This document shows, piece after piece, positions 3,716 through 37,269 of a stretch of 37,269 nucleotides of DNA. How positions within the stretch are numbered: position 1 is the stretch's first letter; every line of letters starts with the position of its first letter. The DNA comes from an uncultured Dokdonia sp. (GTDB lineage: Bacteria; Bacteroidota; Bacteroidia; Flavobacteriales; Flavobacteriaceae), in contig NZ_CALEMI010000097.1 of assembly GCF_937910895.1 (NCBI RefSeq), forward strand, positions 1-37,269. The letters are read 5' to 3'. The position numbers were made by a program, and so were the translations under genes. Under the pieces are notes generated by a model. The model made no database searches. It saw only the letters and a program-made list of their open reading frames with translations, and was not told the origin of the DNA.

Positions 3716-3731
3716 CGCTTTCGCGAAAGCG
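3716..3731. repeat. CGCTTTCGCGAAAGCG palindrome, copy 1 (intergenic)
   Basis: A full 16-bp perfect palindrome lying 21 bases after the stop of the DUF1599 gene. No T-tract follows, so it does not look like a standard intrinsic terminator. It is the only copy in the first 12.7 kb. Confidence 0.95.
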
Positions 3732-3825
3732 TATAAAAAATGAATATAGTTAAGACAAAATTTATATCTGGTAAAAGGAATTGAACAAAACACCAAGGCA
3801 TTAAATTAAAATACTAAACTTAAAA

Positions 3826-6638: not shown

Positions 6639-6675
6639 GCCCATTAATTGATTGGAAACTAAGCTCCTTAAGAAA

Positions 6676-6954
6676 ATGAAAATATTTTTAAAATTCTTCT
6701 TTTCTGTTTTAATACTTGATTTTGTAATTGGACTTATTGTAAATCTTGTATATCAAGCGACTTCTAATATGAATATTATCTTGTCCTTTTTAAACTTTAT
6801 GATTTCAGTTCCATTATCTTTTGTCAGTCGTGATTACCCATATTATGCTAATGGCTCCACTTTATTTATAATCATGTTGGTTTTATTGAATACATTTTTA
6901 CAAACAGCTATTATTTATTTTGTTTGGAAACTCATTATAAAATCAAGAAGATAA
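6676..6954 (+). CDS. Small hydrophobic membrane protein, unknown function
   Basis: 92 residues from the ATG at 6676. An in-frame TTG at 6652 would add eight charged residues and is less likely. The sequence is almost entirely hydrophobic, with segments at about 5-24 (FFFSVLILDFVIGLIVNLVY), 32-50 and 63-86, then a basic end KLIIKSRR, so an inner-membrane protein with about three helices is probable. I recognise no family. It lies 37 bases after the permease stop on the same strand and could be cotranscribed, but nothing links it functionally. Confidence 0.55.
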   Translation: MKIFLKFFFSVLILDFVIGLIVNLVYQATSNMNIILSFLNFMISVPLSFVSRDYPYYANGSTLFIIMLVLLNTFLQTAIIYFVWKLIIKSRR

Positions 6955-7144
6955 ATTATCGTTCTTTTTAATTTCATTACACTTTCTTCAATGAAATAAG
7001 CAAAAGCACCTTTTTTTTTACATATCACTAGGTGTACGTTTATCCTATTGAAACATTCATAATTATAACGTTCTTATGGGATTTTATAGGTAGCGTATCA
7101 ATCTTATTGATATTTTTGTCATTCATTAAAAAAATACACTTTAC

Positions 7145-7897: not shown

Positions 7898-7923
7898 AAA
7901 AGGCATTCCTATTATTTTAGAAT

Positions 7924-7976
7924 AACTTTCATAGTATTTTTATACCTTACAAATATAACAACATACTATGAAAGTT
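7924..7976. repeat. 14-bp perfect inverted repeat covering the start codon of the next gene
   Basis: Left arm AACTTTCATAGTAT at 7924-7937 and right arm ATACTATGAAAGTT at 7963-7976 are exact reverse complements separated by 25 bases. The right arm contains the ATG (7968-7970) of the following gene. In RNA the arms could pair and hide the start codon; in DNA they could be a dimeric operator. Confidence 0.9.
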
Positions 7977-8483
7977 TCTTATATACTCCTCTTGCTATTT
8001 TGTAGCTTGTGCTTCTCTTGCCAAGCACAGCAAAGCATCACAAACTCTGACGGTTCTGTCACACTTCTTAAAAACCAAGACAACACCAGCAATGTCTTTA
8101 TTACGCCAAGCGGCAATGTAGGTATTGGTAAAAAAAATCCAAAAGATAAGCTGGAAGTCAACGGGCAAGTTCACGCAAAATCTGTAAAAGTAGACCTCAA
8201 AGAATGGGCAGACAATGTCTTTGAAGATGGGTATGATTTAATACGCTTGCGCGAAATAGAAAAATACATCAATACCTACGGTCACTTACCCGAAATCCCT
8301 ACCACAGCAGATGTCCAAAAAAATGGAATCGAACTCGGTCAAATGAACATGCTTCTTCTTAAAAAAATAGAAGAACTTACCTTACACCTTATAGAAAAAG
8401 ACCATCAAGTAGAAAAACTACAAGAACAATACGATGCTCTTGAATTAAAAGTAGCACGTATGCAAGAATCTATAAAAGGATAA
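7968..8483 (+). CDS. Secreted protein with S74/tail-fibre-like C-terminus and coiled coil
   Basis: 171 residues. The N-terminus MKVSYILLLLFCSLCFSCQAQQ is a signal sequence; the Cys before QAQQ could be a lipobox, though a signal peptidase I site is also possible. VFITPSGNVGIGKKNPKDKLEVNGQVHAKSV is the beta-strand motif common in flavobacterial tail-fibre-like surface proteins. It is followed by EDGYDLIRLREIEKYINTYGHLPEIPTTADVQKNGIELGQMN, related to S74-type chaperone regions, and by a predicted coiled coil at about 125-168. It lacks a long shaft, so it may be a minimal trimeric surface protein. Its stop is 4 bases before the subtilase start, so the pair is probably one operon. The start codon lies in a 14-bp inverted repeat. 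Confidence 0.7.
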   Translation: MKVSYILLLLFCSLCFSCQAQQSITNSDGSVTLLKNQDNTSNVFITPSGNVGIGKKNPKDKLEVNGQVHAKSVKVDLKEWADNVFEDGYDLIRLREIEKYINTYGHLPEIPTTADVQKNGIELGQMNMLLLKKIEELTLHLIEKDHQVEKLQEQYDALELKVARMQESIKG

Positions 8484-11438: not shown

Positions 11439-12629
11439 ATGAATCTACACGAGTATCAAGGAAAAGAAATGTTAGCAAGTTTTGGCGTACGTATCCAGAG
11501 AGGTATTGTTGCCACTACACCTGCAGAAGCTGTTGCTGCTGCAAAAAAACTTACTGAAGACACTGGAACAGGTTGGCACGTTATAAAAGCACAAGTTCAC
11601 GCTGGTGGTCGTGGTAAAGGTGGTGGTGTAAAACTCGCCAAAAGTCTTGAGCAAGTAGAAGAAATTGCTGGTCAAATTATAGGGATGAATCTTGTGACTC
11701 CGCAAACTAGTGCAGAAGGCAAAAAAGTACACCAAGTACTTGTTGCAGAAGACGTATACTACCCTGGAGATCATGAACCCGAAGAATACTATATGTCAGT
11801 TCTTTTAAATAGAGCTACAGGTCGTAATATGATCATGTATTCTACAGAAGGAGGAATGGATATTGAAACGGTTGCCGAAGAAACACCACATCTTATTTTT
11901 ACGGAGGAAATAAATCCTGCAACTGGATTATTAGGCTTCCAAGCACGTAAAATTGCCTTTAACCTTGGATTAAGCGGTACTGCTTTTAAAGAAATGACAA
12001 AATTTGTTGCTTCTTTATACAAAGCCTATGTAGAGACAGATAGTTCTTTATTTGAAATCAATCCTGTACTTAAAACAAGTGACGATAAAATTATGGCAGT
12101 AGATGCTAAAGTGACTTTAGATGAAAACGCACTTTTCCGTCATAAGGATCTAGCCGCATTACGTGATGAGCGTGAAGAAAATGCTGTAGAAGTAGAAGCG
12201 AAAGCTGTAGGACTTAATTACGTAGACTTAGATGGTAATGTAGGATGTATGGTAAATGGTGCAGGACTTGCTATGGCAACGATGGATCTTATCAAACAAG
12301 CGGGCGGAGAGCCTGCAAACTTCCTTGATGTAGGAGGTACCGCAGATGCCGAACGTGTGGAGATCGCATTTGATCTTATTCTTAAAGATCCTAATGTAAA
12401 AGCCATCCTCGTAAACATATTCGGAGGGATTGTTCGTTGTGATCGTGTTGCGCAAGGAATTGTAGATGCCTATAAAAATATGGGGAATATCTCAGTTCCT
12501 ATCATTGTTCGTTTACAAGGAACTAATGCAGATATTGCAAAAGAATTAATAGACAATAGCGGTCTTGATGTACAAAGTGCTACCGAATTTCAAGAAGCTG
12601 CAGATAAAGTTCAGGCGGTTTTAGCATAA
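11439..12629 (+). CDS. sucC: Succinyl-CoA ligase, ADP/GDP-forming, beta subunit
   Basis: The beta subunit of succinyl-CoA synthetase, which makes ATP or GTP in the citric acid cycle. The 396 residues match the family. The start MNLHEYQGKEMLASFGV is the ATP-grasp signature. HVIKAQVHAGGRGKGGGVKLA binds nucleotide, SLFEINPVLKT and VDAKVTLDENALFRH follow, and the C-terminal ligase-CoA domain shows GCMVNGAGLAMATMDL, PANFLDVGG and ILVNIFGGIVRCD. The alpha subunit gene sucD is not adjacent, which is common in Flavobacteriia. A good promoter precedes it and a strong terminator follows, so it is probably a single-gene transcript. Confidence 0.97.
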   Translation: MNLHEYQGKEMLASFGVRIQRGIVATTPAEAVAAAKKLTEDTGTGWHVIKAQVHAGGRGKGGGVKLAKSLEQVEEIAGQIIGMNLVTPQTSAEGKKVHQVLVAEDVYYPGDHEPEEYYMSVLLNRATGRNMIMYSTEGGMDIETVAEETPHLIFTEEINPATGLLGFQARKIAFNLGLSGTAFKEMTKFVASLYKAYVETDSSLFEINPVLKTSDDKIMAVDAKVTLDENALFRHKDLAALRDEREENAVEVEAKAVGLNYVDLDGNVGCMVNGAGLAMATMDLIKQAGGEPANFLDVGGTADAERVEIAFDLILKDPNVKAILVNIFGGIVRCDRVAQGIVDAYKNMGNISVPIIVRLQGTNADIAKELIDNSGLDVQSATEFQEAADKVQAVLA

Positions 12630-12751: not shown

Positions 12752-12767
12752 CGCTTTCGCGAAAGCG
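12752..12767. repeat. CGCTTTCGCGAAAGCG palindrome, copy 2 (intergenic)
   Basis: A full 16-bp copy, flanked by ttA and TAc so that symmetry extends to TACGCTTT..AAAGCGTA with one-base imperfection at the edges. It sits between the sucC terminator and the GTTAA repeat array, 140 bases before the next gene. Confidence 0.95.
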
Positions 12768-16041: not shown

Positions 16042-17058
16042 TTACGAGAGTACGTCGTTCCACGAGATTTTGACTTTCTCCCAATCAAAACCTCTGGCAC
16101 TTTCTCTTGCCTGTTGTGATATTCGACTTGCAGTTTCCTCATTTTCTATTAATTGTATCATCTTATCTACAAAGGCTACTACATCTTCTGCTGGACTTAA
16201 CAACCCATTTTGTTGATCCTCTATTAGAAAGGGAATTCCCCCCACATTTGTAGATACAATAGGGAGCCCTAAAGCCATTGCTTCAATGATACTAACAGGA
16301 GTATTGTCAAAATTTGTCGTATTTATAAATAGATCATGAGCGGGTGCTAGTGAGATCCATGCTTCTTTAGATAATTTTCCGGTAAATATGACAGAGAGAT
16401 TATTTGCTTTCGCGAAAGCGTAACAACGATCAAAACTTTCATCCTTTTTTGGTCCGACCATCGTAAGCGTTGCTTCAGGATATGTTTTTTGAAGCTCTTT
16501 TAAAACCTGAAGCGCCATCATAGGATTATAAATAGTGGCAAAAGAACGTACCCACAATACCTTAGGAGCACACTTTTTCCTTAACTGAAATGGATATTTA
16601 GTGAGATCTATAGTATTAGGAATATGACGTATGTTGCTATATCCTTCCTTTTGAAAAGCTTCTAGAAGATATGAGGACGGGGCGACATTGATATATGCCC
16701 TACCAAATAATTTTCTAGCACTAGAAGCGCTTTTTTTGATGCGTTCTGGTAAGTTACCACCATGAAGGATCGGGATATAAGGTATTTGGTAAAAACGACA
16801 AAGTTTTGCAACCCATACTGCATACCAATAGTTGGTTGTACTATAGGTGTCTATGAGCACAATATCAACTTGCTTTTTATATTGGATTACAGCACGTAGC
16901 ATATCCCATAAACGTCCTATTTTATTTTGAATACGAGATACTACCTGTACATCATAGCCTTCATTGCGCAAAGATGCACTAAGTGTGTCTATCGTAGTTA
17001 CAGTAACATTTTTATGCGTTAATGCGTTTCCTATGTACAGGATTTTTTTTCTTTTCAT
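16042..17058 (-). CDS. Glycosyltransferase family 4
   Basis: 338 residues with a GT-B fold. The N-terminal Rossmann half begins MKRKKILYIGNALTHKN and contains IPILHGGNLPERIKKS. The C-terminal half has VLWVRSFATIYNPMMALQVL, LTMVGPKKDE and the nucleotide-sugar-binding E-x7-E stretch TPVSIIEAMALGLPIVSTNVGG. The start overlaps the end of the O-antigen polymerase gene by 47 bases, a deep overlap consistent with coupling. The AFAKA peptide in CYAFAKAN is encoded by a copy of the iterated palindrome. Acceptor and donor are not predictable. Confidence 0.92.
   Translation of the reverse strand: MKRKKILYIGNALTHKNVTVTTIDTLSASLRNEGYDVQVVSRIQNKIGRLWDMLRAVIQYKKQVDIVLIDTYSTTNYWYAVWVAKLCRFYQIPYIPILHGGNLPERIKKSASSARKLFGRAYINVAPSSYLLEAFQKEGYSNIRHIPNTIDLTKYPFQLRKKCAPKVLWVRSFATIYNPMMALQVLKELQKTYPEATLTMVGPKKDESFDRCYAFAKANNLSVIFTGKLSKEAWISLAPAHDLFINTTNFDNTPVSIIEAMALGLPIVSTNVGGIPFLIEDQQNGLLSPAEDVVAFVDKMIQLIENEETASRISQQARESARGFDWEKVKISWNDVLS
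16406..16420. repeat. Iterated palindrome, copy 3 (15 of 16 bp, in GT4)
   Basis: GCTTTCGCGAAAGCG, with T instead of C at the left outer position. It is read in the phase GCT TTC GCG AAA GCA on the coding strand, giving AFAKA. Confidence 0.95.
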
Positions 17059-19446: not shown

Positions 19447-20552
19447 AGCAGTTCCTTTATTGAATTTTCAAAGGCGTCTAAGGTGTATTGATGTGACCAT
19501 TGCTGTCCTTGTATAGACATTTCTTTTAATGATTTACTGTCTTTTAACGCTTTCGCGAAAGCGGATACATCGGTGCTTACATCTAAATCTAACAACATTC
19601 CTCTTGACCCTTCTCCTAACATCCAAGGTACGCAAGAAATAGGGGTTACCAGCGGAATCACTCCCCAAAACATCGCTTCTGCAATTACTTTTGGCCATCC
19701 TTCTGACTTAGAAGGCAATATCAAAAAATGAGCTTTTTGATACGCTTCTTGCACCACCTCCGTCGGTTGATTCCCATATAATACCACACGATCTTGAAGT
19801 TGATGCTGACTTATATACGTTTCTAAAAGAGGTCTTTGCAAACCTTCACCATAAAAATGCACACGGATGTCTAATCCTTGTGCAAGACATTCTTTTGCCC
19901 ATTCTAACACATACATAGGTCGTTTGCCAGGAGATAGACTTCCTACAAAAAGAATCTGTATAGGATACGTAAACTCTGGTGTTCTCATAATAGGTACTTC
20001 TGAGTCCCTATAGGTAGCTGTAAAAAAAGGGATTATATTTTTGGTTTGATGTTGCCAATTCCCATACACAAGCACGCTCATATTTTTAGATAAAAATTCG
20101 TTGCTCAATATCCATTTTTGAAGTTTGTAACTTAGCGGTTGCTTTGTTTTTGGACTCCAATTCCCTGCATACTTCACTGTTTTTTTCTTGGAAGGAAAAA
20201 AGATTTGAATAAAAGAAGCTATCAATCCTATGGTAGCTGGACAACGTAAGTGAATATGATCTGCCTGACGCATTGCTTTAAACAATCGCATACAAATAAT
20301 GGGGAATGCCCCTATCGATTTTAAGATAGTAGAAACCGTTCCAAAACTAATGTCAGGAATGGATATAACCTCCAAATCATTTCTTTCAAAAGGTGCTTTG
20401 AGTAGTTTTTGAGTGTAGGAAGTAGGTGATACAATAGTGACCTCATCGACATATGAAAACCAAAGATTCATCTCTTTTACATAAGGCGCATAAGAATAGT
20501 ACTTCTCATTTTCTAAAAGTGTTGGCGCTAGTGTAATGACTAAAAATCGCAT
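19443..20552 (-). CDS. Glycosyltransferase family 4
   Basis: 369 residues with a GT-B architecture. The C-terminal half is clear: IQILFVGSLSPGKRPMYVLEWA, VHFYGEGLQRPLLE, VVLYGNQPTEVVQEAY and ILPSKSEGWPKVIAEAMFWGVIPLVTP with the E-x7-E motif. The N-terminal half (DHIHLRCPATIGLIASFIQIFFPSKKKTVKYAGNW) is typical of transferases acting on lipid-linked acceptors. Gene ends overlap by 1 base upstream (TAATG) and 4 bases downstream. SAFAKAL near the C-terminus is encoded by a palindrome copy. Confidence 0.92.
   Translation of the reverse strand: MRFLVITLAPTLLENEKYYSYAPYVKEMNLWFSYVDEVTIVSPTSYTQKLLKAPFERNDLEVISIPDISFGTVSTILKSIGAFPIICMRLFKAMRQADHIHLRCPATIGLIASFIQIFFPSKKKTVKYAGNWSPKTKQPLSYKLQKWILSNEFLSKNMSVLVYGNWQHQTKNIIPFFTATYRDSEVPIMRTPEFTYPIQILFVGSLSPGKRPMYVLEWAKECLAQGLDIRVHFYGEGLQRPLLETYISQHQLQDRVVLYGNQPTEVVQEAYQKAHFLILPSKSEGWPKVIAEAMFWGVIPLVTPISCVPWMLGEGSRGMLLDLDVSTDVSAFAKALKDSKSLKEMSIQGQQWSHQYTLDAFENSIKELL
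19548..19563. repeat. CGCTTTCGCGAAAGCG palindrome, copy 4 (in GT4)
   Basis: Full 16-bp copy read as GCT TTC GCG AAA GCG on the coding strand (AFAKA). Confidence 0.95.
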
Positions 20553-21101: not shown

Positions 21102-22109
21102 TTATATGTGTTTTGGTTTGTTAAATATAAGGCTTAGCCAGCCAACTATACGTCCTAAGCTTTCGCTAAAAGCGGCTTTTTTATCATTCCCACGTAGGGA
21201 GTTACTCAATCTCACTAGGGTGAGGACATACGCAGTAAGATTCCATAAAAAGCGTTGTTCTAATGTAGGCTTAGGATATTTACTTCTCCAGATATACCAT
21301 CCATTACGGATCACCATTTTACCATATTTAAAATGATTAGGCCTTCCTCCTGGATCATGGTAATGGTGTAGTTGTGCATTTGTATTAATATAGAGCGGTC
21401 CTTTTTTGGATAATCGCAACGTATAATCGGCATCTTCGTATAGACCATATCCTTCAAAATATTCAGAGAATTTTTGAGATTTCAACGCTGCTATTTTGTA
21501 AGAAGCCACACCTCCCATAAGTTGTTCTACTGGATAGATCTTTCCAGAAGGCGGCAAAAAACTAATAGATCTCCCGTGGGAAAATGTAGGCAAATACCCT
21601 GGAGGTCTATTGGCATCTAGTCCTAACTTTTTTCGGAGGACATATCGAGAACCATCAGATCGTACATAGCCGTCAAAATAAAACTGATTGATAGCAGGTG
21701 TAAAAGGTTCGTTTACTTTTTTCCAACTAACTTCATTTACAATATAACCGCCTACCCCTAATGCATCAGGATACACTTGATAGGTTTTAAGAATTTCTTC
21801 AAAATATGTAGTTTCTAACACAATATCGTCATCAAGGAAACAAACAATCTCTATGGTGTCTCCTACTAAGTCAATTCCGTAATTACGCTGTTTTGTTAGA
21901 CCTCTATGTTCTGGTGGCACTTTGAAATAGGAAAGGTTTTTGTATTTGCTTTCGCGAAAGCGGTCTTCTGTTTTATCATCTGTAGAACCGTCAATAATCA
22001 AAATTTCATCTGGATACGTTGACTGTAACTGCACACTATCTAGTAGCGTACATATAGCCACAGGTCGCATATATGTGCAAACAATTAAACTAAGTTGAGT
22101 GTTATGCAT
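21102..22109 (-). CDS. Glycosyltransferase family 2
   Basis: 335 residues with a GT-A fold. LSLIVCTYMRPVAICTLLDSVQLQSTYPDEILIIDGSTDD is the GT2 start, EIVCFLDDDIVLE carries the metal-binding acidic motif, and the second half has GGVASYKIAALKS and FEGYGLYEDADYTLRLSKKGPLYI, giving the ED base/receptor motif. It is an inverting transferase that adds a sugar to the growing unit. Start and upstream stop overlap by 8 bases. EDRFRES near residue 50 is palindrome-encoded, and a damaged copy underlies AFSES near the C-terminus. Confidence 0.92.
   Translation of the reverse strand: MHNTQLSLIVCTYMRPVAICTLLDSVQLQSTYPDEILIIDGSTDDKTEDRFRESKYKNLSYFKVPPEHRGLTKQRNYGIDLVGDTIEIVCFLDDDIVLETTYFEEILKTYQVYPDALGVGGYIVNEVSWKKVNEPFTPAINQFYFDGYVRSDGSRYVLRKKLGLDANRPPGYLPTFSHGRSISFLPPSGKIYPVEQLMGGVASYKIAALKSQKFSEYFEGYGLYEDADYTLRLSKKGPLYINTNAQLHHYHDPGGRPNHFKYGKMVIRNGWYIWRSKYPKPTLEQRFLWNLTAYVLTLVRLSNSLRGNDKKAAFSESLGRIVGWLSLIFNKPKHI
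21948..21962. repeat. Iterated palindrome, copy 5 (15 of 16 bp, in GT2)
   Basis: GCTTTCGCGAAAGCG, with T at the left outer position. It is read CGC TTT CGC GAA AGC on the coding strand (RFRES), a different phase from copies 3 and 4. Confidence 0.95.
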
Positions 22110-23643
22110 CTAATGGTAATTTTTTAGCCCAATGGGTACTATTTTTCCAAGCTTTCTTAAAGTAAGAAATATAAGAAAAAGGATTTTTGATCGGTTGATG
22201 GGAATAATATTTAAAGAAAAGCATCCATTTATATCCTTTTAATTGTGCTTTTGTAGTGTTTTTTGTACGATGAAATAAAATCTGAGGTGCTGGTTTTGGG
22301 AGTATCGCATCCTCCTCCCAAGGGAATGTCGGTAAACTTCTAAAACCACCTATGGGTGCTTTAAGATGTAGGATTTGTATATGAGGCGCATAGATCACAT
22401 CATATCCAAGATTACGTATTTGCATGCCAAAGTCAACATCTTCTCCATATCCATGCTCTAATGCCATGTCAAAAGAAGCGTTTTTAACAATGTCACGATG
22501 TACGACAGAACAACCTGAACCAAAGGTTTCCCATTGGGTATACGTCTTGTGCTTTTCTACTTCGCCTTCTTGTAAGTAAGACATATTGATACAATGAGAT
22601 CCTGTTTCTTTAATAGCTGCTGCTATTTTTTCCAAAAGATTGGACTCAAATCTATTATCATCATCAAAAAGAAAAACCCAATCGGCTTCTGTTTTTTCTA
22701 ATGCCAAGTTCCGTGCATTACAAGCGCCTGTCTGATGGATAAATTGATGTTCTATAGGAAATGGCCATGATGCTGTAGTGATATAATCCAATTCGGAGCT
22801 ACTATCAGGATCAGGGTTTTGTTCTACAATAACGATCTTTTGAGGAAGTATAGTTTGCTTAGAAAAGTCCTTAAGCACATCATATAAATAGGTTTTTCTT
22901 CCTAGTGTAGGAATAATCACATCGATCTCCAATTTTTCTAACAACTTCTTTGAAGACTGGAAAGGAATTGAGGTTAAATCTATAAAGACTTCTTTTTTCT
23001 GAACAAATAACAGTGCGTTTAGACAAGCAAAAAGTGGAAACTTTTTTTCATAGCGTATATGACACATGAGTAAGAAAAACAACCATTGTGATTTAAAGTG
23101 TTCTTTTACAAAAGCGTATTGTAGTTGTGTGTTCGCTTTTTTAATAGTGTCTTTACTAGGGAATCTCTTTATTAACAACGGTTCGTGATAACAACATATT
23201 CCTGCTGCTTGTCCTTTTCGCGCAAGCGAATTCAAAAAATAATCAAATCCTCTTGTGATGGTAATCTCATTTCCTGAAGCTAGCAATACACTCGCGTGTA
23301 TCGCACCAACGGCACTACTCATACACCACGTAGGATAGCTTTTGTTAGCAATTATTTTTAAAAACGGACTGTCTTCTATATAGCCAATGGATGGTGATAA
23401 AAAAGGATATTGTGCATTCCCAAGACTTACCATACGCCTTTTATGATGTAGTAATTCAGGTAGTGCCTGTATATTAAGCATCTCTTTATTAGTTACGTGA
23501 CACCAGATAATCCACTCTTCAGGATACCGTTCTGCAATGGCTAAAAGGGCTTTTGCAGGTTCTTTCTCTTGAATGGAAACAGGTATTGCCTGATCATCTA
23601 CGATCTCTTGTACAGTATCGTGTATGTGATATAAAAAGATCAT
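22102..23643 (-). CDS. Glycosyltransferase family 2 with ~235-residue N-terminal extension
   Basis: 513 residues. From about 240 onward it is a standard GT2: IDVIIPTLGRKTYLYDVLKDFSKQ, QKIVIVEQNPD, GACNARNLALEKTEADWVFLFDDDNRFE (metal motif DDD), then a second half with SYLQEGEVEKH, GSGCSVVHRDIV and EHGYGEDVDFGMQIRNLGYDVIYAP. Residues 1-235 are unusual. WIIWCHVTN, AVGAIHASVLLASG and RGFDYFLNSLARKGQAAGICCYHEPLLIKR follow the order of a GT-A domain but lack an acidic DxD, so this half may be a decayed or regulatory GT2 domain. It overlaps both neighbours (4 and 8 bp). Confidence 0.85.
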   Translation of the reverse strand: MIFLYHIHDTVQEIVDDQAIPVSIQEKEPAKALLAIAERYPEEWIIWCHVTNKEMLNIQALPELLHHKRRMVSLGNAQYPFLSPSIGYIEDSPFLKIIANKSYPTWCMSSAVGAIHASVLLASGNEITITRGFDYFLNSLARKGQAAGICCYHEPLLIKRFPSKDTIKKANTQLQYAFVKEHFKSQWLFFLLMCHIRYEKKFPLFACLNALLFVQKKEVFIDLTSIPFQSSKKLLEKLEIDVIIPTLGRKTYLYDVLKDFSKQTILPQKIVIVEQNPDPDSSSELDYITTASWPFPIEHQFIHQTGACNARNLALEKTEADWVFLFDDDNRFESNLLEKIAAAIKETGSHCINMSYLQEGEVEKHKTYTQWETFGSGCSVVHRDIVKNASFDMALEHGYGEDVDFGMQIRNLGYDVIYAPHIQILHLKAPIGGFRSLPTFPWEEDAILPKPAPQILFHRTKNTTKAQLKGYKWMLFFKYYSHQPIKNPFSYISYFKKAWKNSTHWAKKLPLDA

Positions 23644-24779
23644 GAGGCGATAATGCCTTTATAGAATTTGATATTTTCTTCTGCAATTTGGTCTTGTGTA
23701 AAATGTGCTAAAATACGCTCACGAGCTTGTACTCCCATCTTTTTTGACAGATCCATATCTTGTAATAAACGTACGATAGCTTCTGAAAGTTTTTGAATAT
23801 CGTCAGGAGAAATTATATATCCTGTCTCTCCATCTATCATGAGTTCCTTTGCCCAGCCAATATCTGAAGTCACCATTGCCTTCTCTAACGCCATCGCTTC
23901 TAGCCAGGTCATAGGAAAGGCTTCTGCATAACTGGGTAAGCAAACCACTTGAGCACTTCTAATCGCATTTGCCACTTCGCTATATGGAATTTGCGCTGTA
24001 AACTTGGCTTGCTTTATGGCTTCTTTATTTAGTATAGATTGCAATAACGCAATCGTACTCGTGCCTGTTTTTGCGTCAATCACATCTTTACCTATGAATG
24101 TTAATTGTGCGTTTGGTTCTTGTAGGATCACCTTATTGAAAGCTTCGGCTAATGAAAATACCCCTTTTTTACGAATGACACTTCCAAAATAAAGTATAGA
24201 AAAAGGGATGATCTTACTATTATCTGGTGTAAATGCGTCTACATCTACGCCGTTATGTATCGTGGTTATGGTGTCTTTTATACCAAATAGCTCTGCTGTT
24301 TTTTGAGCTGTAAATGCACTTACAGATAGAATATAATCTGCGCTTGTTAATGCCATTTTTTCAAAGTAGAAGTTCTTCTTTTTTTGAGGTCTTCCTTCTA
24401 AATGACAAAAATAGGTGTCTGATCCGTGGAGTCGTATCACTACAGGGATTTTAAATTTCATAAAAGCCGTAATTCCCGTCCAGTCTGGTGCTTCTATTGC
24501 ATCGATATGTTGTTGTTTTACAATCGTATTTATATACCGATTGATATGCTTTCGATATAAATACCATCCTCCAATAGGATACTTTTTATGTTTTATAAGA
24601 TGTAGCGTAACTCCATCTTCTTCTATGATCGTATCTTCTGCCTGACTATATATAAATACAGTTACTTGTATATGCTTTCGCGAAAGCGCAATAGCAAGAT
24701 TTTTAATACTTGTGCCTATTCCTGCTGCACGTTGGATGCGTGGATGGGGATATTCTGGAGTGAGGAAGGCAATATGCAT
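23640..24779 (-). CDS. Glycosyltransferase family 4
   Basis: 379 residues. MHIAFLTPEYPHPRIQRAAGIGTSIKNLAIALSRKHIQVTVF is the GT4 donor-side opening with a GIG loop. The second half has FSILYFGSVIRKKGVFSLAEAF, LTFIGKDV and VCLPSYAEAFPMTWLEAMALEKAMVTSDIGWAKELMIDGETGYI with the E-x7-E motif. LSRKH at about residue 34-38 is encoded by a palindrome copy and sits in the first helix, where GT4 proteins tolerate variation. A 21-bp gap separates it from the upstream gene. Confidence 0.93.
   Translation of the reverse strand: MHIAFLTPEYPHPRIQRAAGIGTSIKNLAIALSRKHIQVTVFIYSQAEDTIIEEDGVTLHLIKHKKYPIGGWYLYRKHINRYINTIVKQQHIDAIEAPDWTGITAFMKFKIPVVIRLHGSDTYFCHLEGRPQKKKNFYFEKMALTSADYILSVSAFTAQKTAELFGIKDTITTIHNGVDVDAFTPDNSKIIPFSILYFGSVIRKKGVFSLAEAFNKVILQEPNAQLTFIGKDVIDAKTGTSTIALLQSILNKEAIKQAKFTAQIPYSEVANAIRSAQVVCLPSYAEAFPMTWLEAMALEKAMVTSDIGWAKELMIDGETGYIISPDDIQKLSEAIVRLLQDMDLSKKMGVQARERILAHFTQDQIAEENIKFYKGIIAS
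24674..24688. repeat. Iterated palindrome, copy 6 (15 of 16 bp, in GT4)
   Basis: GCTTTCGCGAAAGCG in the context ATGCTTT..; read CTT TCG CGA AAG CAT on the coding strand (LSRKH), the third phase. Confidence 0.95.
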
Positions 24780-27956: not shown

Positions 27957-29660
27957 TCAATTATGGCGCAAAGATACTAATAAGCTAGCATTAATCCATT
28001 GCCAAATATGAAAACTACTATCCTGATCTCCATTTACATAGCGAGTCCATTCTTCCTGTAATTGTTCATAGTCAAACCAAGAAGTGTCTTTAAGTCCTTC
28101 TATGGTATTTTCTACCCAATCCTTAAGATCTTCTGCCAGCCATTCCCGCTGTGGCGTTTGCAAAGGGCGTTTGGGTGCATAGGTAATGCTATCCGAGAGA
28201 TATTCAGATACGATAGCACGTAGTAGATATTTTTGTACGCCATCATGTATTTTATACGTAAGCGGTTGTGCAAAAGCAAACTCTACAAGCCTATAATCCA
28301 AAAAAGGCTCTCGTAACTCCGTACTGAATTGCATAGAGACTCGATCATTAAAACGAAGTGCTCTCGGAATCTTTGTATAAAATAAATCTCGGTATTGTAA
28401 ATTTAAGATTCGGTCTTTAAAAGGTGTTGGATAGATTGGTTTTTTTGCTTTCGCGAAAAAGTCCGCAGTCAACACCCCCGTTCTAAAAGGAGATTTGGAA
28501 ACCCCTTGAATAACATTATCTGATGTCTTCGTATAATAATCATACCCAGCCCACTGTTCATCCATCCCTTGACCGTCTAGTAGTACTTTGACCCCTTTTG
28601 ATCGTGCTTCTTTAAAAAGTTCGCCATACGCCACGGTGGGTACACCACCATAAGGCTCATCTTGTTGTATTGCCATGACCTCAGCAAGAGAAGCAAGATG
28701 ATCTACTTCCAGTTGTATTTTAGTCAATGGATTTTTGGTATGCGCAATCAATCCCTCTACCCAAGGCAGTTCATCATACCGATCGTCTCCTGTATAAAAT
28801 GTAAAGGCTTCTATATTTTCACCCTCTTCCAACCGATTGACCAACGCCAATAACGCCGAACTATCCAATCCCCCACTTACATTAAAACCAATAGGAACAT
28901 CAGCTCTAAAGCGCAATCGAATACTATCATCCAGTAATTGAAGATATCTGGCTTTTACGATTTCAAAAGAAAGCGCTATATCGTATTTCTTGACAGCTTC
29001 TTCAAAGTCATACCAACGTGCTATGGCAACCTCCGAATCATCCAATGTTAAAAAATGTCCACCTTGTAATTGGTGGATACCTTCCCAAAAGGTCTCATTA
29101 GGCATTCCATAACTTCCATACGCAAAATAACTAGCCCAAACGGATTCGTTAGGTGTTTTGGAAATTCCAGCAGCAAACAGACTCTTTATTTCAGAAGCAA
29201 AATAAAAAGTGTTTTCAACCACCGTATAATAAAAGGGTTTTACCCCAAACCGATCTCTAGCTGCAAAAAGTCGTTGTTCTTTTGTATCCCAAATGGCAAA
29301 GGCAAACATGCCATTTAGTTTAGAAAGACACGCGTCTCCCCACGCTTGATAGGCTGCTAATAAGACTTCGGTGTCTGAGTTTGTTGTAAAAGAATATGTA
29401 GACGCTAATTGCTTTTTGAGTTCTATATAATTATAAATTTCTCCATTAAAAACAATGATAAATCGAGAATCGTGAGAAAAAAATGGCTGATTTGCTTCTG
29501 GAGATAAATCAATAATTGCCAACCGATTATGACCTAGAAAAGTATCACCTTTCATGTATCTTCCAGTAGCGTCAGGACCTCGATGCGCTTGCGCTTCCAG
29601 CATCGCATCTAGTTGTTTTTGAGAAGCTTTATTCCCTATGATTCCTGCAATACCACACAT
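27957..29660 (-). CDS. asnB: Asparagine synthase-like glutamine amidotransferase
   Basis: 567 residues starting MCGIAGIIGN, since Cys2 is the glutaminase nucleophile; a frame extension to 29702 would bury it and is rejected. AHRGPDATG, FNGEIYNYIELKK and the ARDRFGVKPFYY segment complete the N-terminal Ntn domain. The synthetase domain has the PP-loop VSGGLDSSAL (261-270) and DGQGMDEQWAGYDYY. The start codon overlaps the neuA stop as TAATG. In surface-sugar clusters AsnB homologues often amidate carboxylates of uronic or nonulosonic acids; general asparagine synthesis is also possible. FFAKAKK is encoded by the damaged palindrome copy. Confidence 0.9.
   Translation of the reverse strand: MCGIAGIIGNKASQKQLDAMLEAQAHRGPDATGRYMKGDTFLGHNRLAIIDLSPEANQPFFSHDSRFIIVFNGEIYNYIELKKQLASTYSFTTNSDTEVLLAAYQAWGDACLSKLNGMFAFAIWDTKEQRLFAARDRFGVKPFYYTVVENTFYFASEIKSLFAAGISKTPNESVWASYFAYGSYGMPNETFWEGIHQLQGGHFLTLDDSEVAIARWYDFEEAVKKYDIALSFEIVKARYLQLLDDSIRLRFRADVPIGFNVSGGLDSSALLALVNRLEEGENIEAFTFYTGDDRYDELPWVEGLIAHTKNPLTKIQLEVDHLASLAEVMAIQQDEPYGGVPTVAYGELFKEARSKGVKVLLDGQGMDEQWAGYDYYTKTSDNVIQGVSKSPFRTGVLTADFFAKAKKPIYPTPFKDRILNLQYRDLFYTKIPRALRFNDRVSMQFSTELREPFLDYRLVEFAFAQPLTYKIHDGVQKYLLRAIVSEYLSDSITYAPKRPLQTPQREWLAEDLKDWVENTIEGLKDTSWFDYEQLQEEWTRYVNGDQDSSFHIWQWINASLLVSLRHN
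28447..28458. repeat. Iterated palindrome, copy 7 (damaged, in asnB)
   Basis: GCTTTCGCGAAA is intact for 12 bases, then continues AAG instead of GCG. On the coding strand it reads TTT TTC GCG AAA GCA (FFAKA). It is the only copy of the eleven that has lost one outer arm. Confidence 0.85.
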
Positions 29661-30358
29661 TAATCTTTCCACTTTTTGACGAGTTCTTCTGCTTTTTTCC
29701 AATCGTCCATTGTGTCAATATTGACATGCCATACGGGATCAGATTCGATATAACTAATGCTTGAACCGTACAACGAATTTTGTTCTAAAAGCACCTCGCT
29801 TTTAGTCATATAAATTGCCCCATCACGGATGTAAGCATCCGGCAAATCTTGTCTTCTTTTAATGATTTCTTTTTCGCCTGTTGCGATCTGGAGTTTCCCA
29901 TCTTTGGTAGCTTCAAATACCCAATGCGGATTGTACTCATGGGGTACTTTCAATACCGATACGAGGGAGTCTGTGTTCGCTTTCGCGAAAGCGGAAACCG
30001 CCTTATCAATCAGCTGCGCACTTCGAAAAGGGTTGGTGACTTGTAGCAAACAAACCGCATCATACTGCTTGCCTTGGGATTGCATAAACTGCAATGCATG
30101 CTGTACCACACCCAGCGAACCAGAATGATCTTCGGCAAGTTGTTGCGGACGTTGGAAAGGTACTGAAACCCCTAAATCACGTGCTAACGTCATCAACTCC
30201 TCATCTTCTGACGAGAAAATAAGCGTATCTAATTTTGTTGCCTTCAATCCTGCTTCTATGGTATAGTGCAATAAAGGATGTCCGCCTAGTAATTTCTTAT
30301 TTTTACCGGGAATTCCTTTGCTACCGCCTCGTGCGGGTATAAGGCCTAGCACTTTCAT
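29660..30358 (-). CDS. neuA: CMP-nonulosonic acid cytidylyltransferase
   Basis: 232 residues. MKVLGLIPARGGSKGIPGKNKKLLGG is the CTP-binding signature of CMP-sialate/KDO-type cytidylyltransferases. LIFSSEDEEL, PFQRPQQLAEDHSGS and VCLLQVTNPFRSAQLIDKAV follow, and IRDGAIYMTKSEVL and VNIDTMDDWKKAEELV close the fold. Together with the neighbouring neuB and neuC it should activate a nonulosonic acid with CTP. The exact sugar (Neu5Ac, legionaminate or other) cannot be read from sequence. SAFAKANTDS is encoded by a full palindrome copy. Ends overlap both neighbours by one base. Confidence 0.9.
   Translation of the reverse strand: MKVLGLIPARGGSKGIPGKNKKLLGGHPLLHYTIEAGLKATKLDTLIFSSEDEELMTLARDLGVSVPFQRPQQLAEDHSGSLGVVQHALQFMQSQGKQYDAVCLLQVTNPFRSAQLIDKAVSAFAKANTDSLVSVLKVPHEYNPHWVFEATKDGKLQIATGEKEIIKRRQDLPDAYIRDGAIYMTKSEVLLEQNSLYGSSISYIESDPVWHVNIDTMDDWKKAEELVKKWKD
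29978..29993. repeat. CGCTTTCGCGAAAGCG palindrome, copy 8 (in neuA)
   Basis: Full 16-bp copy read GCT TTC GCG AAA GCG (AFAKA). Confidence 0.95.
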
Positions 30359-31515
30359 TAATACGTAATGGTTTTATGATAAGATAATGGGCAGGTTGCG
30401 AGGATATCAGCAATCTTTTCTCCCGCTTCTCCATTACCATAAATCGGCGAAGAAGGAATTTTTGTTGCTGTCAATTGCTTTTTGATCGCTTCTCCAATGG
30501 CTTCTTTGGTATAATCTACATCAATCACATTGGCACCACGATCTCTCCCATGTTGGCGCGTTCCTATATTAACCACAGGCACACCGAGATAGGCACATTC
30601 TCTAATGCCGACACTACTATTTCCTATCAAACATTTTGAGTTGACAAGCAACTCCAAAAAGTCATTAGGCTCCATATTTTTAAAGAAACGGATGTTTTTT
30701 GGGTTGACGCTTTCGCGAAAGCTTCTAATTCCATTACTTGTACCGTCAGATCCTGCATCTACATTCGGCCAAAACCAATAGGTAGGAATCCCCAATTCGT
30801 GGATGACTTCTAAGGTAGTCAACACATCTTTTTTGGCAGCTCCATACTCCGTTGTTACAGGATGTTGCATCACAACTAGATAGTCGGCGTCTTTTGGAAT
30901 GGCAGCACCTACGCCTCCGTATTTTTGAGAAGGATCAAACGTAAATCCTGGATTTTCTTTTACACTTTTTGCAATGTCTATAGACGGACATCCTGTGTTG
31001 TGTACGGTATGTTCTTCTTCTCCTAGTTTGAGCACACGTGTTTTTGCGCTTTCGCTCGCAACTAGATGAATATCTGCCAGCTTGGTATTGGCATGGCGTA
31101 CTTTTTCATCAATATTTCCTGTGACTTCGCCTCCTTGAATATGAACTAAAGGTATATTTTGATAGGCTGCGGCAATCGAGGTTGCGATAGTTTCAAAACG
31201 ATCAGCAATCGTGACGACCATATCGGGTTGTAGTTTATAAAAAACAGTTGCCAACTCCATCACACCGAGTCCTGTGGTTTTTGCCATAGCGGTTTTGTTT
31301 TCGCCTTCGAGTACCATAAATACTTTTTCGGCAATCTCAAAACCATCTTGCTCAATATAATCGACAGCATTGCCATAACGTCCTAACAAAGCAGAGCCTG
31401 CGATCACAAGCTGTAATTCTAGATGAGGATGTTCTTTAATGGCTTGTAACGCCGTTTTAATTCTGCTATACGAAGGTCTTGCCGTGACAACCACACATAC
31501 TTTTCGGTTACTCAT
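30358..31515 (-). CDS. neuC: UDP-N-acetylglucosamine 2-epimerase, hydrolysing (NeuC type)
   Basis: 385 residues. KVCVVVTARPSYSRIKTALQAIKEHP is the NeuC N-terminus. PDMVVTIADRFETIATSIAAAYQNIPLVHIQGGEVTGNIDEKVRHANTKLADIHLVASESAKTRVLKLGE is the sialic-acid 2-epimerase signature, including the IDEKVRHA stretch. SKCLIGNSSVGIRECAYLGVPVVNIGTRQ lies near the C-terminus. It would convert UDP-GlcNAc, or UDP-diacetamido-bacillosamine, to ManNAc or an analogue for NeuB. Its start overlaps the neuB stop by 8 bases. SFRESVN is palindrome-encoded, and a damaged palindrome lies at SESAKT. Confidence 0.92.
   Translation of the reverse strand: MSNRKVCVVVTARPSYSRIKTALQAIKEHPHLELQLVIAGSALLGRYGNAVDYIEQDGFEIAEKVFMVLEGENKTAMAKTTGLGVMELATVFYKLQPDMVVTIADRFETIATSIAAAYQNIPLVHIQGGEVTGNIDEKVRHANTKLADIHLVASESAKTRVLKLGEEEHTVHNTGCPSIDIAKSVKENPGFTFDPSQKYGGVGAAIPKDADYLVVMQHPVTTEYGAAKKDVLTTLEVIHELGIPTYWFWPNVDAGSDGTSNGIRSFRESVNPKNIRFFKNMEPNDFLELLVNSKCLIGNSSVGIRECAYLGVPVVNIGTRQHGRDRGANVIDVDYTKEAIGEAIKKQLTATKIPSSPIYGNGEAGEKIADILATCPLSYHKTITY
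30708..30722. repeat. Iterated palindrome, copy 9 (15 of 16 bp, in neuC)
   Basis: CGCTTTCGCGAAAGC then T. On the coding strand it reads AGC TTT CGC GAA AGC (SFRES), the same phase as copy 5. Confidence 0.95.
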
Positions 31516-32506
31516 GTATACAATCTTGGGTTAAAAAGTCCCACTTTTTTAATGCCTTGGTGATGGGTTTTCCAATCACTGACTCAAATTGAGAAGCGTC
31601 TATGCCATACCCTTTAGGCTTTTTTGCTTCTAAATCATTAAAAGTGAGTATATATCCTTTCGGCAGGTCTTTGTTTACCGATAAAGATTTTTCAAAAATA
31701 CGTTTTAATTCGGCATATTGGGTACTGTTGGACTTATCAATGGGATGCTTTCGCGAAAGCGTAATATTGCGGACACTTTTTACCATGGTAGGAATATCCT
31801 TGATCTCTATAGAAGAGGTCGCGTCAGGCCCAAAATCTGAATGAGAAAACACGGCGTGAAATTCTAAAATCTCAGCACCTAAAGCGGTGGCTGCAATGCA
31901 CGTTCCAATATCCGCCGAATGATCTGAATAGCCGATTGGCACGTCATATCGATCTTTTAATTCTTGTATAACGTTTAATCCATACTGCTCTGGTGCAGTG
32001 GGATAGCTGGTCGTACATTGTAGGATAGAAAAATCTACCTTCTTTTCTTTAAGAAACCGTACGGTCTCATCGAGCTCTGCAAAAGAACTCATGCCAGAAG
32101 ATACAATCACAGGTTTTCCAGTAGCAGCAATTTTTTCTAATAGCAGAAAATTATTAACTTCTCCAGAACCCACTTTATAGCGTTGCATTCCTATTTCTTC
32201 CAACAGATCTACGGCCGCATTACTAAAAGGCGAAGACATAAATTCTAGTCCCGCTTTTTTGCAACGTCTTTTGATTTCTATCCATTGTTCTTTAGAAAAC
32301 TCCATACGTTTCCAATAATCAAAACGGGTAGCGTCTTGATCTGAAAACTTAACTCGAAAGGGTTCGTGAATACTACTCTCTGCCTCGGCAATATGGGTTT
32401 GAAACTTGATGGCGTCTATGCCCGTTCCTTCCAGCGCATCTATGTAGTCATACACTTTTTGTATACTGCCATTATGTGCTTGTGCTATTTCTGCGATGAT
32501 CAACAT
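31508..32506 (-). CDS. neuB: N-acetylneuraminate (nonulosonate) synthase
   Basis: 332 residues. MLIIAEIAQAHNGS is the NeuB start. DAIKFQTH, FMSSPFSNAAVDLLEEIGMQRYKVGSGEVNN, KPVIVSSGMSS, ILQCTTSYPTAPEQYGLNVIQEL and VPIGYSDHSADI form the TIM barrel that condenses a six-carbon acyl-amino sugar with phosphoenolpyruvate. Residues about 270-332 (KRIFEKSLSVNKDLPKGYILTFNDLEAKKPKGYGI) are the C-terminal antifreeze-like SAF domain. It opens the neuB-neuC-neuA block. LSRKH in ITLSRKHPID is palindrome-encoded. The product sugar is not resolved by sequence. Confidence 0.94.
   Translation of the reverse strand: MLIIAEIAQAHNGSIQKVYDYIDALEGTGIDAIKFQTHIAEAESSIHEPFRVKFSDQDATRFDYWKRMEFSKEQWIEIKRRCKKAGLEFMSSPFSNAAVDLLEEIGMQRYKVGSGEVNNFLLLEKIAATGKPVIVSSGMSSFAELDETVRFLKEKKVDFSILQCTTSYPTAPEQYGLNVIQELKDRYDVPIGYSDHSADIGTCIAATALGAEILEFHAVFSHSDFGPDATSSIEIKDIPTMVKSVRNITLSRKHPIDKSNSTQYAELKRIFEKSLSVNKDLPKGYILTFNDLEAKKPKGYGIDASQFESVIGKPITKALKKWDFLTQDCIHE
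31747..31761. repeat. Iterated palindrome, copy 10 (15 of 16 bp, in neuB)
   Basis: GCTTTCGCGAAAGCG in the context ATGCTTT..AAAGCGT; read as LSRKH on the coding strand, the same phase as copy 6. Confidence 0.95.
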
Positions 32507-32517
32507 GTATCTGTTTT

Positions 32518-33204: not shown

Positions 33205-33335
33205 AATTTAGGTTGATTTAATGGGGTTACAGTTACAGGTGCACTAATAAGTAGGAACAAACAAAGATGCTGATTTCATTTAAAAGCAGCTATTCTATGG
33301 GAATATTCATATATAAATGTATCACTTTTTATTTT

Positions 33336-34136: not shown

Positions 34137-34139
34137 AGG

Positions 34140-35090: not shown

Positions 35091-36208
35091 CCTCTATCAA
35101 CTTTTATCGTGTCATACGCTTTTAAAACTGACTGTTGTATGGTCTGTCGTTCCCATTGTTTTTTAAGATCCTGATTATACAAAAAAGCAGTTGCTACTAA
35201 CTCCTGATTTTGCAATGCCATCAGTATATGCTTTTCAATTTCAGCAGGGTCTTCACAATCTTCAATAAGTAATCCGTTTATCTCGGGTGTAATGACTTCG
35301 GCTGTGGCATCTCCAGGATTGGATTGGATAGGAAATGCTCCCATACATATTGCTTCTAATACCGTATTGGGCATTCCATCTGAGTTACTATTACCAATAT
35401 AAACTACTGACGCTCCCATCAATTTTAATATCCCATGATGTGACATCTGTTTATGAAATATCCACTGACTGGGTACATTCACTTTAAAATCAAGTGTCTC
35501 AGGACTGCATCCAAAGACAACAACTTCATAATCATTTAATTCCTTTTTCATAGCGTTGAGAGCTTGAAGGATGGGAATTGCTCTTCCCGATCTTCCTTGG
35601 TATCCTTTTACTAAGATCAGCTTACGATCTGCTATTGGTTTGATATAGCTTTTTGTTTCTTCTAATTCAAAACCGCCTCCTCCGGGAAAAACACCCAATG
35701 ATCTCCCTGAAAAACCTAGTGTTTTAGCTAGTTCTTGATCTCTGTGGCAATCAGTAAATAAATAATTGATTTCTGGCAACACGGCTTCTATATCGCGTCT
35801 ATAGCTAGGAATGTCTTTGAAATAAAATAAATCGCTTCCCCAAGAAGAATAGATCCAAGGAATTTTTGATGCCTTCATGACGTTTAAAATCGGCGTACAA
35901 GAAACATATAAGGCAAAACTGTGAACTACGTCTGGTTGGATTTCTTGTAGTTTTTCTTTAAAAATTGTCTCTATATTTCGTTCAAAAAAAGCTGTCAGAA
36001 ACGGAAGTTTAGTACTTATTTTTTTGAACAGATATCGCCCTTTTTTAAACCGATATTTCCAATTGATATGTTGTTTTACAAAATCTAAAGATGCATTTCC
36101 CGCTCCCCCACGTACATCAAACCAATGTACCTCATGACCACTATCTCTCAACTGTTCTGTCCAACGCTGAAAGTGAATCGAATTCATAGAAACCATAAGT
36201 ATTTTCAT
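35087..36208 (-). CDS. Glycosyltransferase family 4
   Basis: 373 residues. MKILMVSMNSIHFQRWTEQLRDSGHEVHWFDVRGG opens a GT-B fold. VVHSFALYVSCTPILNVM and WIYSSWGSDLFYF are donor-half motifs. The second half has RKLILVKGYQGRSGRAIPILQAL, YEVVVFGCSPE and VVYIGNSNSDGMPNTVLEAICMGAFPIQSNPGDATAEVI with the E-x7-E-like motif. It overlaps both neighbours by ATGA. Confidence 0.9.
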   Translation of the reverse strand: MKILMVSMNSIHFQRWTEQLRDSGHEVHWFDVRGGAGNASLDFVKQHINWKYRFKKGRYLFKKISTKLPFLTAFFERNIETIFKEKLQEIQPDVVHSFALYVSCTPILNVMKASKIPWIYSSWGSDLFYFKDIPSYRRDIEAVLPEINYLFTDCHRDQELAKTLGFSGRSLGVFPGGGGFELEETKSYIKPIADRKLILVKGYQGRSGRAIPILQALNAMKKELNDYEVVVFGCSPETLDFKVNVPSQWIFHKQMSHHGILKLMGASVVYIGNSNSDGMPNTVLEAICMGAFPIQSNPGDATAEVITPEINGLLIEDCEDPAEIEKHILMALQNQELVATAFLYNQDLKKQWERQTIQQSVLKAYDTIKVDRG

Positions 36209-37269
36209 AAAGACGATGACAGATTTATGGTACAGATGATTTTTTCATTCTTCCTATCAAAAGAATAGGTATACGGTGTATTGCGATGATTTGCAATCAG
36301 GGTCTCCAAAAGTTGAGCGTTTGCCTCTTCTAAAGGTATAAAAAGCGGTGTTTTCTTTTTAAGTAGTTTTTTGACGTTTGTTTTGATGCCCTTTGCATCT
36401 GGATGTGGTTGTACTGTGAGTTGTACAACACCCTTCCAAACGCCTTCTGAAAGTTGAAAACAAAAGGCAGTAATTGCATCCAATGTACCAGTACATTGGA
36501 TACTCACATCAGGTGTTTCGAGCGCTAAATAGGCTTTTTCATTAGGAAGAACTCCCCACTCATTCCCTTGGTTTGCATAGGTTTTTTTATGCTTTCGCGA
36601 AAGCGAAATATACTCAAAATTAACACGTTCCAAAGCAGGGTGATACGGCGCTGTACTTTCTTTGGATCTATAAAATTTAGGATGCCATTGATGTAATAAT
36701 AAGCATTCCTCTTGATTGAAGTGTACTGAAATTCCTTGATTGCGTAATCGTACATGTACATCGGTATCTTCAGATCCCCAGCCGTGATAAAACTCATCAA
36801 AACCATTGATTTCTTTTAAGATCGCTGTTGGAAATAAGGTCATTCCTGTAGCTTCTTCATTGGTATAAAATTTTACTTGATACTCGTTGAATGGCTTCTC
36901 CAATTTACTTTCTTCTTCGGTAAGAATCCCTACGTTAAAATATGTCACCTCAGCAGAGTGAAGATGCTCTTGAATTTTTGTGACGAACTCAGGATGAAAA
37001 AGCATATCCATATCTGCAACCATAAAATAGGGTGTGTCACATTGCTTTAAGGCAATATTTATGGCTCTTGTTTTTTGCCATAATTGCCCTTGTGTTGGAC
37101 ATTTTATTAATGTCACTCCATTTAAGGCAGCAATATAGGTTTTGAGATCTTCTTGGTATGTTGGCTCACTGCCATAGTCTACCACAACTACATTTACGTC
37201 TTTTCCTAATTGCATTCCAATAGAGGTAAGCGTACGTTTTACGGTAGCTATATCTCTATTACGATTTGG
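36205..37269 (-). CDS. Glycosyltransferase family 2 (N-terminus beyond window)
   Basis: The open frame continues past the ATG at 37215 to the window edge without a stop. The 18 extra residues (PNRNRDIATVKRTLTSIG) fit the GT2 start, so that ATG is probably internal. DVNVVVVDYGSEPTYQ, TRAINIALKQCDTPYFMVADMDMLFHPE (D-x-D metal motif) and INGFDEFYHGWGSEDTDVHVRLRNQGISVHF (galactosyltransferase-like C-terminal motif) are clear. The last ~100 residues are a less conserved tail. LSRKH in ISLSRKHKKTY is palindrome-encoded. The stop overlaps the next start by 4 bp. Confidence 0.9.
   Translation of the reverse strand, partial: PNRNRDIATVKRTLTSIGMQLGKDVNVVVVDYGSEPTYQEDLKTYIAALNGVTLIKCPTQGQLWQKTRAINIALKQCDTPYFMVADMDMLFHPEFVTKIQEHLHSAEVTYFNVGILTEEESKLEKPFNEYQVKFYTNEEATGMTLFPTAILKEINGFDEFYHGWGSEDTDVHVRLRNQGISVHFNQEECLLLHQWHPKFYRSKESTAPYHPALERVNFEYISLSRKHKKTYANQGNEWGVLPNEKAYLALETPDVSIQCTGTLDAITAFCFQLSEGVWKGVVQLTVQPHPDAKGIKTNVKKLLKKKTPLFIPLEEANAQLLETLIANHRNTPYTYSFDRKNEKIICTINLSSSL
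36591..36605. repeat. Iterated palindrome, copy 11 (15 of 16 bp, in GT2)
   Basis: GCTTTCGCGAAAGCG in the context ATGCTTT..; read as LSRKH on the coding strand, the same phase as copies 6 and 10. Confidence 0.95.

Follow-up and report, generated by a model that had tools for sequence, protein, structure and literature searches.

A highly iterated 14-bp palindrome of Dokdonia and related flavobacteria: a putative DNA-uptake sequence

Known iterated sequences and the palindrome of the window

The closest described counterparts of the element treated here are the DNA uptake sequences (DUS) of Neisseria and the uptake signal sequences (USS) of the Pasteurellaceae; in the portions of the two papers drawn on, uptake sequences are described in Neisseriaceae and Pasteurellaceae only (PMC7811141, PMC1939737). 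The element is a perfect 14-bp palindrome, GCTTTCGCGAAAGC, repeated along a 37,269-bp stretch of DNA from an uncultured Dokdonia sp. (contig NZ_CALEMI010000097.1, positions 1 to 37,269, forward strand), which is referred to in its full length as the window. With DUS and USS it shares hundreds of copies per genome, a sharp core with looser flanks, an origin in place, permissive positions, homologues that are either exact or unrelated, a constraint on spacing, an enrichment between genes and genus-specific dialects. It differs from them in its perfect palindromy (14 bp, or 20–22 bp with the outer bases), its hosts, which are Bacteroidota, its fewer copies per Mb, its strand-asymmetric G/T-rich flank, and in being known from sequence alone. 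The palindromic core is a departure from the known DUS and USS members; a core that is not palindromic is no functional requirement of such sequences.

The highly iterated palindromes (HIPs) of cyanobacteria, HIP1 (GCGATCGC) and its alternates, are likewise found genome-wide and mostly within genes, and the likeness to HIP1, under a different sequence, that the original prediction had drawn from the letters of the window was borne out. The present palindrome is 14 rather than 5–8 bp long, about 4–17 times rarer per kb and enriched between genes, and no methylase common to its carriers was found among three families tested (PF00145, PF01555, PF02086). The Noc-binding sites and parS of Bacillus are palindromes of 14–16 bp with TTTC...GAAA arms, as here; Noc sites number tens per genome, the palindrome hundreds. 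Repetitive extragenic palindromic (REP) sequences and bacterial interspersed mosaic elements (BIMEs) are abundant palindromic repeats which are extragenic and inserted; abundance and palindromy are shared, whereas the present copies are substitutional and often coding.

The window was matched to the 16-mer CGCTTTCGCGAAAGCG with up to three mismatches tolerated and shuffled sequence as control, and 13 matches were returned (shuffles: mean 0.06, maximum 1). These were the eleven copies of the original prediction, all recovered at the positions given or 1 bp away, together with two weak resemblances of three mismatches each (8244..8259 and 23213..23228, the latter CCTTTTCGCGCAAGCG) which were excluded from the copy count. 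Among the eleven, four were exact 16-mers, six had one mismatch at an outermost base and one, at 28446, had three, which upholds the count of ten copies matching at least 15 of 16 bp, far above shuffles. What does not vary among the copies is the 14-mer GCTTTCGCGAAAGC, its own reverse complement: the window has ten exact copies, where order-2 and order-3 Markov models, fitted after masking of the palindrome copies, predict about 1e-4 or fewer.

Distribution, placement and origin of the copies

The host genome (4.81 Mb in 169 contigs) contains 878 copies of the 14-mer against 0.006 expected from base composition and none of the reversed control; neither of the outcomes that would have refuted the original prediction, counts near expectation or copies confined to the one cluster, was observed. 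The genus name Dokdonia is used because the triosephosphate isomerase of the window has 88% identity to that of an uncultured Dokdonia, followed by 71% for the next best. All 18 Dokdonia genomes examined carry 369–905 copies, all 23 genomes of a second genus (g11) carry 288–857, and a third genus (g191), sampled by a single genome, has 408. In a sample of 397 genomes of the family, 80 had any copy, hundreds were found only in these three genera, and the highest count elsewhere was 19; in a sample of 395 genomes of the class, 24 had any copy, all with four or fewer except the host genome. Copy number was hardly related to genome size (r 0.34, 13 genomes). Intermediate numbers were observed in G093 (16) and G303 (19), both of genus g77, and in G068 (17, genus g52); transferred DNA, or a system that is decaying or building up, are candidate readings of these.

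A consensus search gave no match in plasmid records and weak partial matches in six phage records, and in a scan of viral contigs pieces with 1–3 copies were among the 80 matches listed. Phage P12024S, whose host is now called Nonlabens, has no copy in 35.0 kb, which is pertinent only if the second genus is Nonlabens, an unverified guess. Analogous repeats were sought elsewhere as palindromic words in 76 named loci, each 9 kb or longer and including the Dokdonia locus: other palindromic 10-mers, few in all, reached only 3–4 copies, the most frequent being TTTCTAGAAA with four copies in L039. Six locus and word pairs were inspected and none could be extended into a shared palindrome of greater length; two palindromic 10-mer copies in L094 were part of a short tandem repeat.

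Placement was studied in 20 spaced 20-kb windows each from one Dokdonia genome (G001) and one genome of g11 (G418), in which 105 and 99 exact copies were counted and three rearranged palindromes gave none. The variance of the counts per 20 kb was smaller than their mean (2.7 against a mean of 5.25, and 2.5 against 4.95). Gaps shorter than 1 kb made up 4 of 85 in these windows of G001 (21.9 expected) and 1 of 80 in those of G418 (19.6 expected), and 4 of 99 and 5 of 93 (22.7 and 18.3 expected) in two further samples, from G001 and G413, so that two of the four samples come from the G001 chromosome. Close neighbours were thus strongly avoided in all four, which is counted here as the spacing of an uptake sequence. 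Overall gap variation in G001 was below random (coefficient of variation, CV, 0.74; P 0.0006). Copy-free gaps of 17–30 kb exist, and one sampled 20-kb stretch had no copy. A gradient from origin to terminus or along the chromosome was not visible by eye in the 20-kb windows, the position of the origin not having been located.

With genes assigned by a simple open reading frame (ORF) caller rather than by annotation, more than half of the copies lay within genes (57 of 105 in G001 and 65 of 99 in G418), and intergenic copies were enriched 4–5-fold (48 of 105 against 10.2 expected, and 34 of 99 against 8.7 expected). Of the 47 intergenic copies in G001 that have a gene on either side, 24 start 4–25 bp downstream of a stop codon; density peaks between convergent genes, with 12 copies in 3.3 kb as compared with 29 in 23.5 kb between tandem and 6 in 10.4 kb between divergent genes; in G418 convergent gaps (6 in 4.9 kb) and divergent gaps (9 in 8.0 kb) were roughly alike. 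The original prediction had placed the repeat mostly in coding sequence and away from gene ends. The first part stands for the window, where nine of the eleven copies are coding, but genome-wide there is an excess of copies in intergenic DNA and close to the ends of genes, and the copy at 3716 itself starts 21 bp past a stop codon.

The origin of the copies was examined at 36 coding sites of one genomic region, that of tpiA, in 18 Dokdonia genomes; many of these sites are one position seen across several species, and the counts are therefore not independent events. Of 240 orthologue pairs at sites, 68 were exact, 8 had one to three mismatches, 156 had four or more and 8 were gapped, while 960 control windows from the same alignments gave 19, 244, 671 and 26. 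Gaps are thus about as frequent at sites as in controls, from which it follows that copies are not inserted: they originate by substitution in place, and an orthologous position holds either a perfect copy or unrelated sequence, seldom a near-miss. Where the orthologue is free of the palindrome, amino-acid identity was 0.366 at the site and 0.607 around it, the value at the site being the lower one at all 20 sites that could be tested, which indicates that the protein positions occupied are permissive. One-mismatch copies were correspondingly few beside exact ones (7 against 105 in G001 and 14 against 99 in G418; none of either for the three rearranged palindromes). In two-mismatch copies, one arm deviated at both of its outer bases in 18 of 24 cases in G001, 3 of 9 in G418 and 6 of 16 at other loci, and symmetric compensation was seen in 1 of 24 in G001.

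The outer bases form dialects by genus, TTAC...GTAA in Dokdonia and TTC...GAA in g11. Flank statistics were computed with copies near locus ends and duplicate flanks left out. To about 20 bp, the 5' flank of either strand is rich in G and T and poor in C, for intergenic and coding copies alike (L239-L278), and G+T at -6 to -20 of strictly intergenic copies was 64 and 67% against a background of 52 and 51%. This flank has a 3-nt rhythm, with values by phase of 0.77/0.53/0.61 (96 arms) and 0.77/0.56/0.66 (66 arms), reached in none of 5,000 permutations in either case. The 3' flank is enriched in A, not in T. Outside the core, the two flanks showed no consistent pairing beyond that due to composition, individual bins lying anywhere from about 2.3 standard deviations (sd) below shuffles to 1.8 sd above them. 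A recombinase filament takes up three nucleotides per subunit, and the rhythm may reflect recombinase binding or a receptor that opens strands; neither is a firm reading.

The uptake reading and its rivals

From this distribution, GCTTTCGCGAAAGC with its genus-specific outer bases and G/T-rich flank is read as a DNA-uptake, or self-recognition, sequence, with a probability of roughly 0.55; a DNA-uptake or recombination signal was rightly among the roles originally listed. A DNA receptor at the cell surface or in the periplasm, probably dimeric and symmetric, would bind the palindrome on free DNA, the bound DNA would enter a ComEC-type competence channel, and homologous recombination would then exchange chromosomal alleles for those bearing a site. 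Such biased exchange would create and maintain exact copies wherever protein or intergenic constraint allows, at about one per recombined fragment. What the sequences show is the pattern of the copies and the presence of ComEC; the role in uptake, the reading by a receptor and the spread by recombination are inferred from it. More tentatively, the palindromic signal, with one core kept under dialects of outer bases, may be read by a symmetric receptor and may belong to an uptake route through an outer-membrane barrel rather than a type IV pilus, and the G/T-rich, 3-nt-periodic flank may aid strand entry or recombinase loading.

Most of the DUS and USS hallmarks that can be computed were matched: iteration, spacing, in-place origin, permissive positions, intergenic excess and dialects. 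The comparison draws on a Neisseria study by Treangen and colleagues. Passages of that study give homologues of uptake sequences as one mismatch away or unrelated, their locations as permissive regions and in majority intergenic, and their spacing as linked to recombination or conversion fragments (PMC2397512). A significant even spacing of uptake sequences is also quoted, with doubt as to whether evenness suffices for compaction, in part of a further paper (PMC1939737). Among flavobacteria, according to the sections consulted, transformation of Riemerella requires ComEC, DprA, ComF, RecA, a DUF5689 protein, a predicted outer-membrane barrel protein and others (PMC8459023), and the competent Riemerella columbina favours its own DNA, with no motif established and only A/T-rich words from a k-mer count (PMC7965970). 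The ComEC family was found in 11 of 11 carriers tested and DUF5689 in 9 of 9.

Several points weigh against an uptake role. ComEC is also present in 10 of 11 non-carriers and DUF5689 in 8 of 9, and the competence machinery, present in carriers, is thus not specific to them. A tree of DUF5689 needs at least two changes between carrier and non-carrier, and the best form of the barrel-protein tree also needs two, one being still possible (14 of 17 loci were used in these trees, three unsorted by the motif rule being left out); a Riemerella-type surface protein was accordingly rejected as the specificity determinant, neither tree singling out carriers. In 0.46 and 0.76 Mb of DNA sampled from the two main carrier genera, no sign of recent exchange of genes between them appeared: of 152 inter-genus matches of at least 300 bp, the only one at 80% identity or more was the 16S rRNA gene. 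Gap variation in G413 was not below random (CV 0.92 against 0.99, P 0.25). Known uptake sequences are not palindromes (PMC1939737), and an uptake model leaves the G/T-rich, 3-nt-periodic flank unexplained. The role assigned is putative; avoidance of close copies and sharp conservation would also be expected of a chromosomal binding site.

That alternative, the main rival, in which the dimer of a chromosomal protein (a nucleoid organiser, condensin loader, or nucleoid-occlusion or ParB/Noc-like protein) reads the 14-bp palindrome and its flanks at spaced sites and so packages or orders the chromosome, is considered rather unlikely but possible, as is the nucleoid-protein target of the original prediction. 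It would account for the perfect dyad symmetry of the core and the symmetric flanks, for conservation over divergent species as well as the avoidance of close copies, and for independence from a competence machinery that non-carriers also have. Dense coverage is evidently not required, however, given the gaps of 17–30 kb and the empty 20-kb stretch; copy number hardly tracks genome size, no origin-to-terminus gradient is visible by eye, and the number of copies is well above that of Noc, MatP and ParB systems, which have far fewer sites.

An origin of the HIP1 kind, with the palindrome made or kept by a DNA methyltransferase together with methyl-directed mismatch repair, is improbable. The palindrome does have a CGCG/TCGCGA core, and the two-mismatch copies that lose both outer bases of one arm recall the one-base deviations of HIP1, which favour its ends (PMC4390886). 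A matching methylase would be expected in each carrier, but G004, G007 and G422, with 757, 808 and 563 copies, are without above-cut-off PF00145, PF01555 or PF02086, the search having covered these three and not PF02384, PF07669 or others; the orphan methylase that had been offered as one explanation is weakened to that extent. A C5 methylase was rejected as maintainer, being absent in 7 of 11 carriers. Specificity at every position of 14 bp exceeds that of type II methylase sites, and the density of 0.12–0.27 per kb (13 genomes computed) compares with 1–2 per kb for HIPs, as given in the same portion of text (PMC4390886). An N6/N4 methylase fragment with an in-frame stop was observed at G416:C1:886737-887006.

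A transcription terminator or mRNA hairpin signal is very improbable. The start of half of the two-sided intergenic copies of G001 just past a stop codon, and their peak between convergent genes, would suit such a signal, but over half of all copies lie inside genes, convergent gaps of G418 are not much richer than divergent ones, and the 3' flank is A-rich without the T-tract expected of an intrinsic terminator. Maintenance as a hairpin was rejected: one of the 24 two-mismatch copies in G001 showed symmetric compensation, and the complementarity of the flanks departed from that of shuffles by no more than about 2.3 sd, above or below. A short insertion that spreads by copying itself into new sites, of the REP or miniature inverted-repeat transposable element kind, is scarcely credible, for although hundreds of copies are exactly identical and flanks near copies share composition, site gaps are about as frequent as in controls, presence adds no length relative to the empty site and copies avoid one another, and this suggestion of the original prediction was rejected on the orthologue alignments.

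In the portions of the open-licence literature searched by topic, neither the 14-mer GCTTTCGCGAAAGC nor any such Bacteroidota element was found, and the 10-mer TTTCGCGAAA occurred in ten papers of seemingly unrelated subject, to judge from titles and the openings of abstracts; a palindromic uptake signal is undescribed for Bacteroidota in that literature. A palindrome of marine flavobacteria that has most of the computable hallmarks of an uptake sequence opens self-recognition in Bacteroidota to direct test and provides a bait for the isolation of a receptor; it may also be of use in genetic work on these organisms, as a tag for transformation, and as a tracer of gene flow. Were the chromosomal-protein explanation true instead, the palindrome would be an unusually abundant genome-organising site.

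Copies in the window, islands and copy-free stretches

Two of the eleven window copies are intergenic, both exact 16-mers: one at 3716..3731, which starts 21 bp beyond the final base of the stop codon of ORF 3159-3695, and one at 12752..12767, about 120 bp after ORF 11439-12629, which has ATP-grasp and CoA-ligase domains and is succinyl-CoA synthetase beta-like. The coding copies use all three frames (AFAKA, RFRES and xLSRK) and lie mostly within a surface-polysaccharide cluster of glycosyltransferase, NeuB, epimerase and cytidylyltransferase families; all of the genes concerned are on the minus strand. AFAKA is encoded by exact 16-mers at 19548..19563 (SAFAKA, glycosyltransferase 19443-20552) and 29978..29993 (SAFAKA, cytidylyltransferase-family protein 29660-30358) and by an exact 14-mer with outer base T at 16405..16420 (YAFAKA, glycosyltransferase 16042-17058). 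The RFRES frame is used by exact 14-mers at 21947..21962 (outer base T; RFRES, family-2 glycosyltransferase 21102-22109) and 30708..30723 (right outer base T; SFRES, UDP-GlcNAc 2-epimerase-family protein 30358-31515). The xLSRK frame is used by exact 14-mers with outer base T at 24673..24688 (ALSRKH, glycosyltransferase 23640-24779), 31746..31761 (TLSRKH, NeuB-family protein 31508-32506) and 36590..36605 (SLSRKH, glycosyltransferase 36205-37215). The partial copy at 28446..28461, in an asparagine-synthase-like gene (27957-29702), has an intact core and differs at both outer bases of one 14-mer arm, the commonest two-mismatch class in G001.

The polysaccharide cluster as a whole extends over 14612-37215, with an initiating sugar transferase, a Wzy_C ligase or polymerase, many glycosyltransferases and the NeuB, UDP-GlcNAc 2-epimerase and cytidylyltransferase families, and holds nine copies. 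A similar-looking low-GC sugar cluster of G418 (L278), its identity judged from ORFs alone, has none.

In palindrome-poor genera, loci of 10–20 kb with 2–5 copies each were found (L283-L290). The copies sit in efflux-pump, P-type ATPase-like and Fur-like genes (labels read from peptides), which are common to those genomes at 71–97% DNA identity, and two copies separated by 933 bp are found together in five genera (G095, G104, G118, G231 and G177). No match to these islands was found in the sampled DNA of carriers; a carrier origin, read from the palindromes alone, is possible, and the efflux and P-type-ATPase-like islands may thus be a tracer of transfer from carrier lineages.

The contents of the two longest listed gaps each in G001 and G413, chosen for lacking copies and so illustrative, were also inspected. 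One copy-free stretch has neighbouring ORFs of 4,431 residues (L330, 1127-14422) and 5,052 residues (L331, 925-16083), each of which adjoins a short gene with identical first 25 residues. The gap in L332 (4489-9396) contains an RHS-repeat protein and, near a STAND/Mrr-like ATPase, a Wadjet-like set of DUF3375, DUF4194 and SbcC-like genes.

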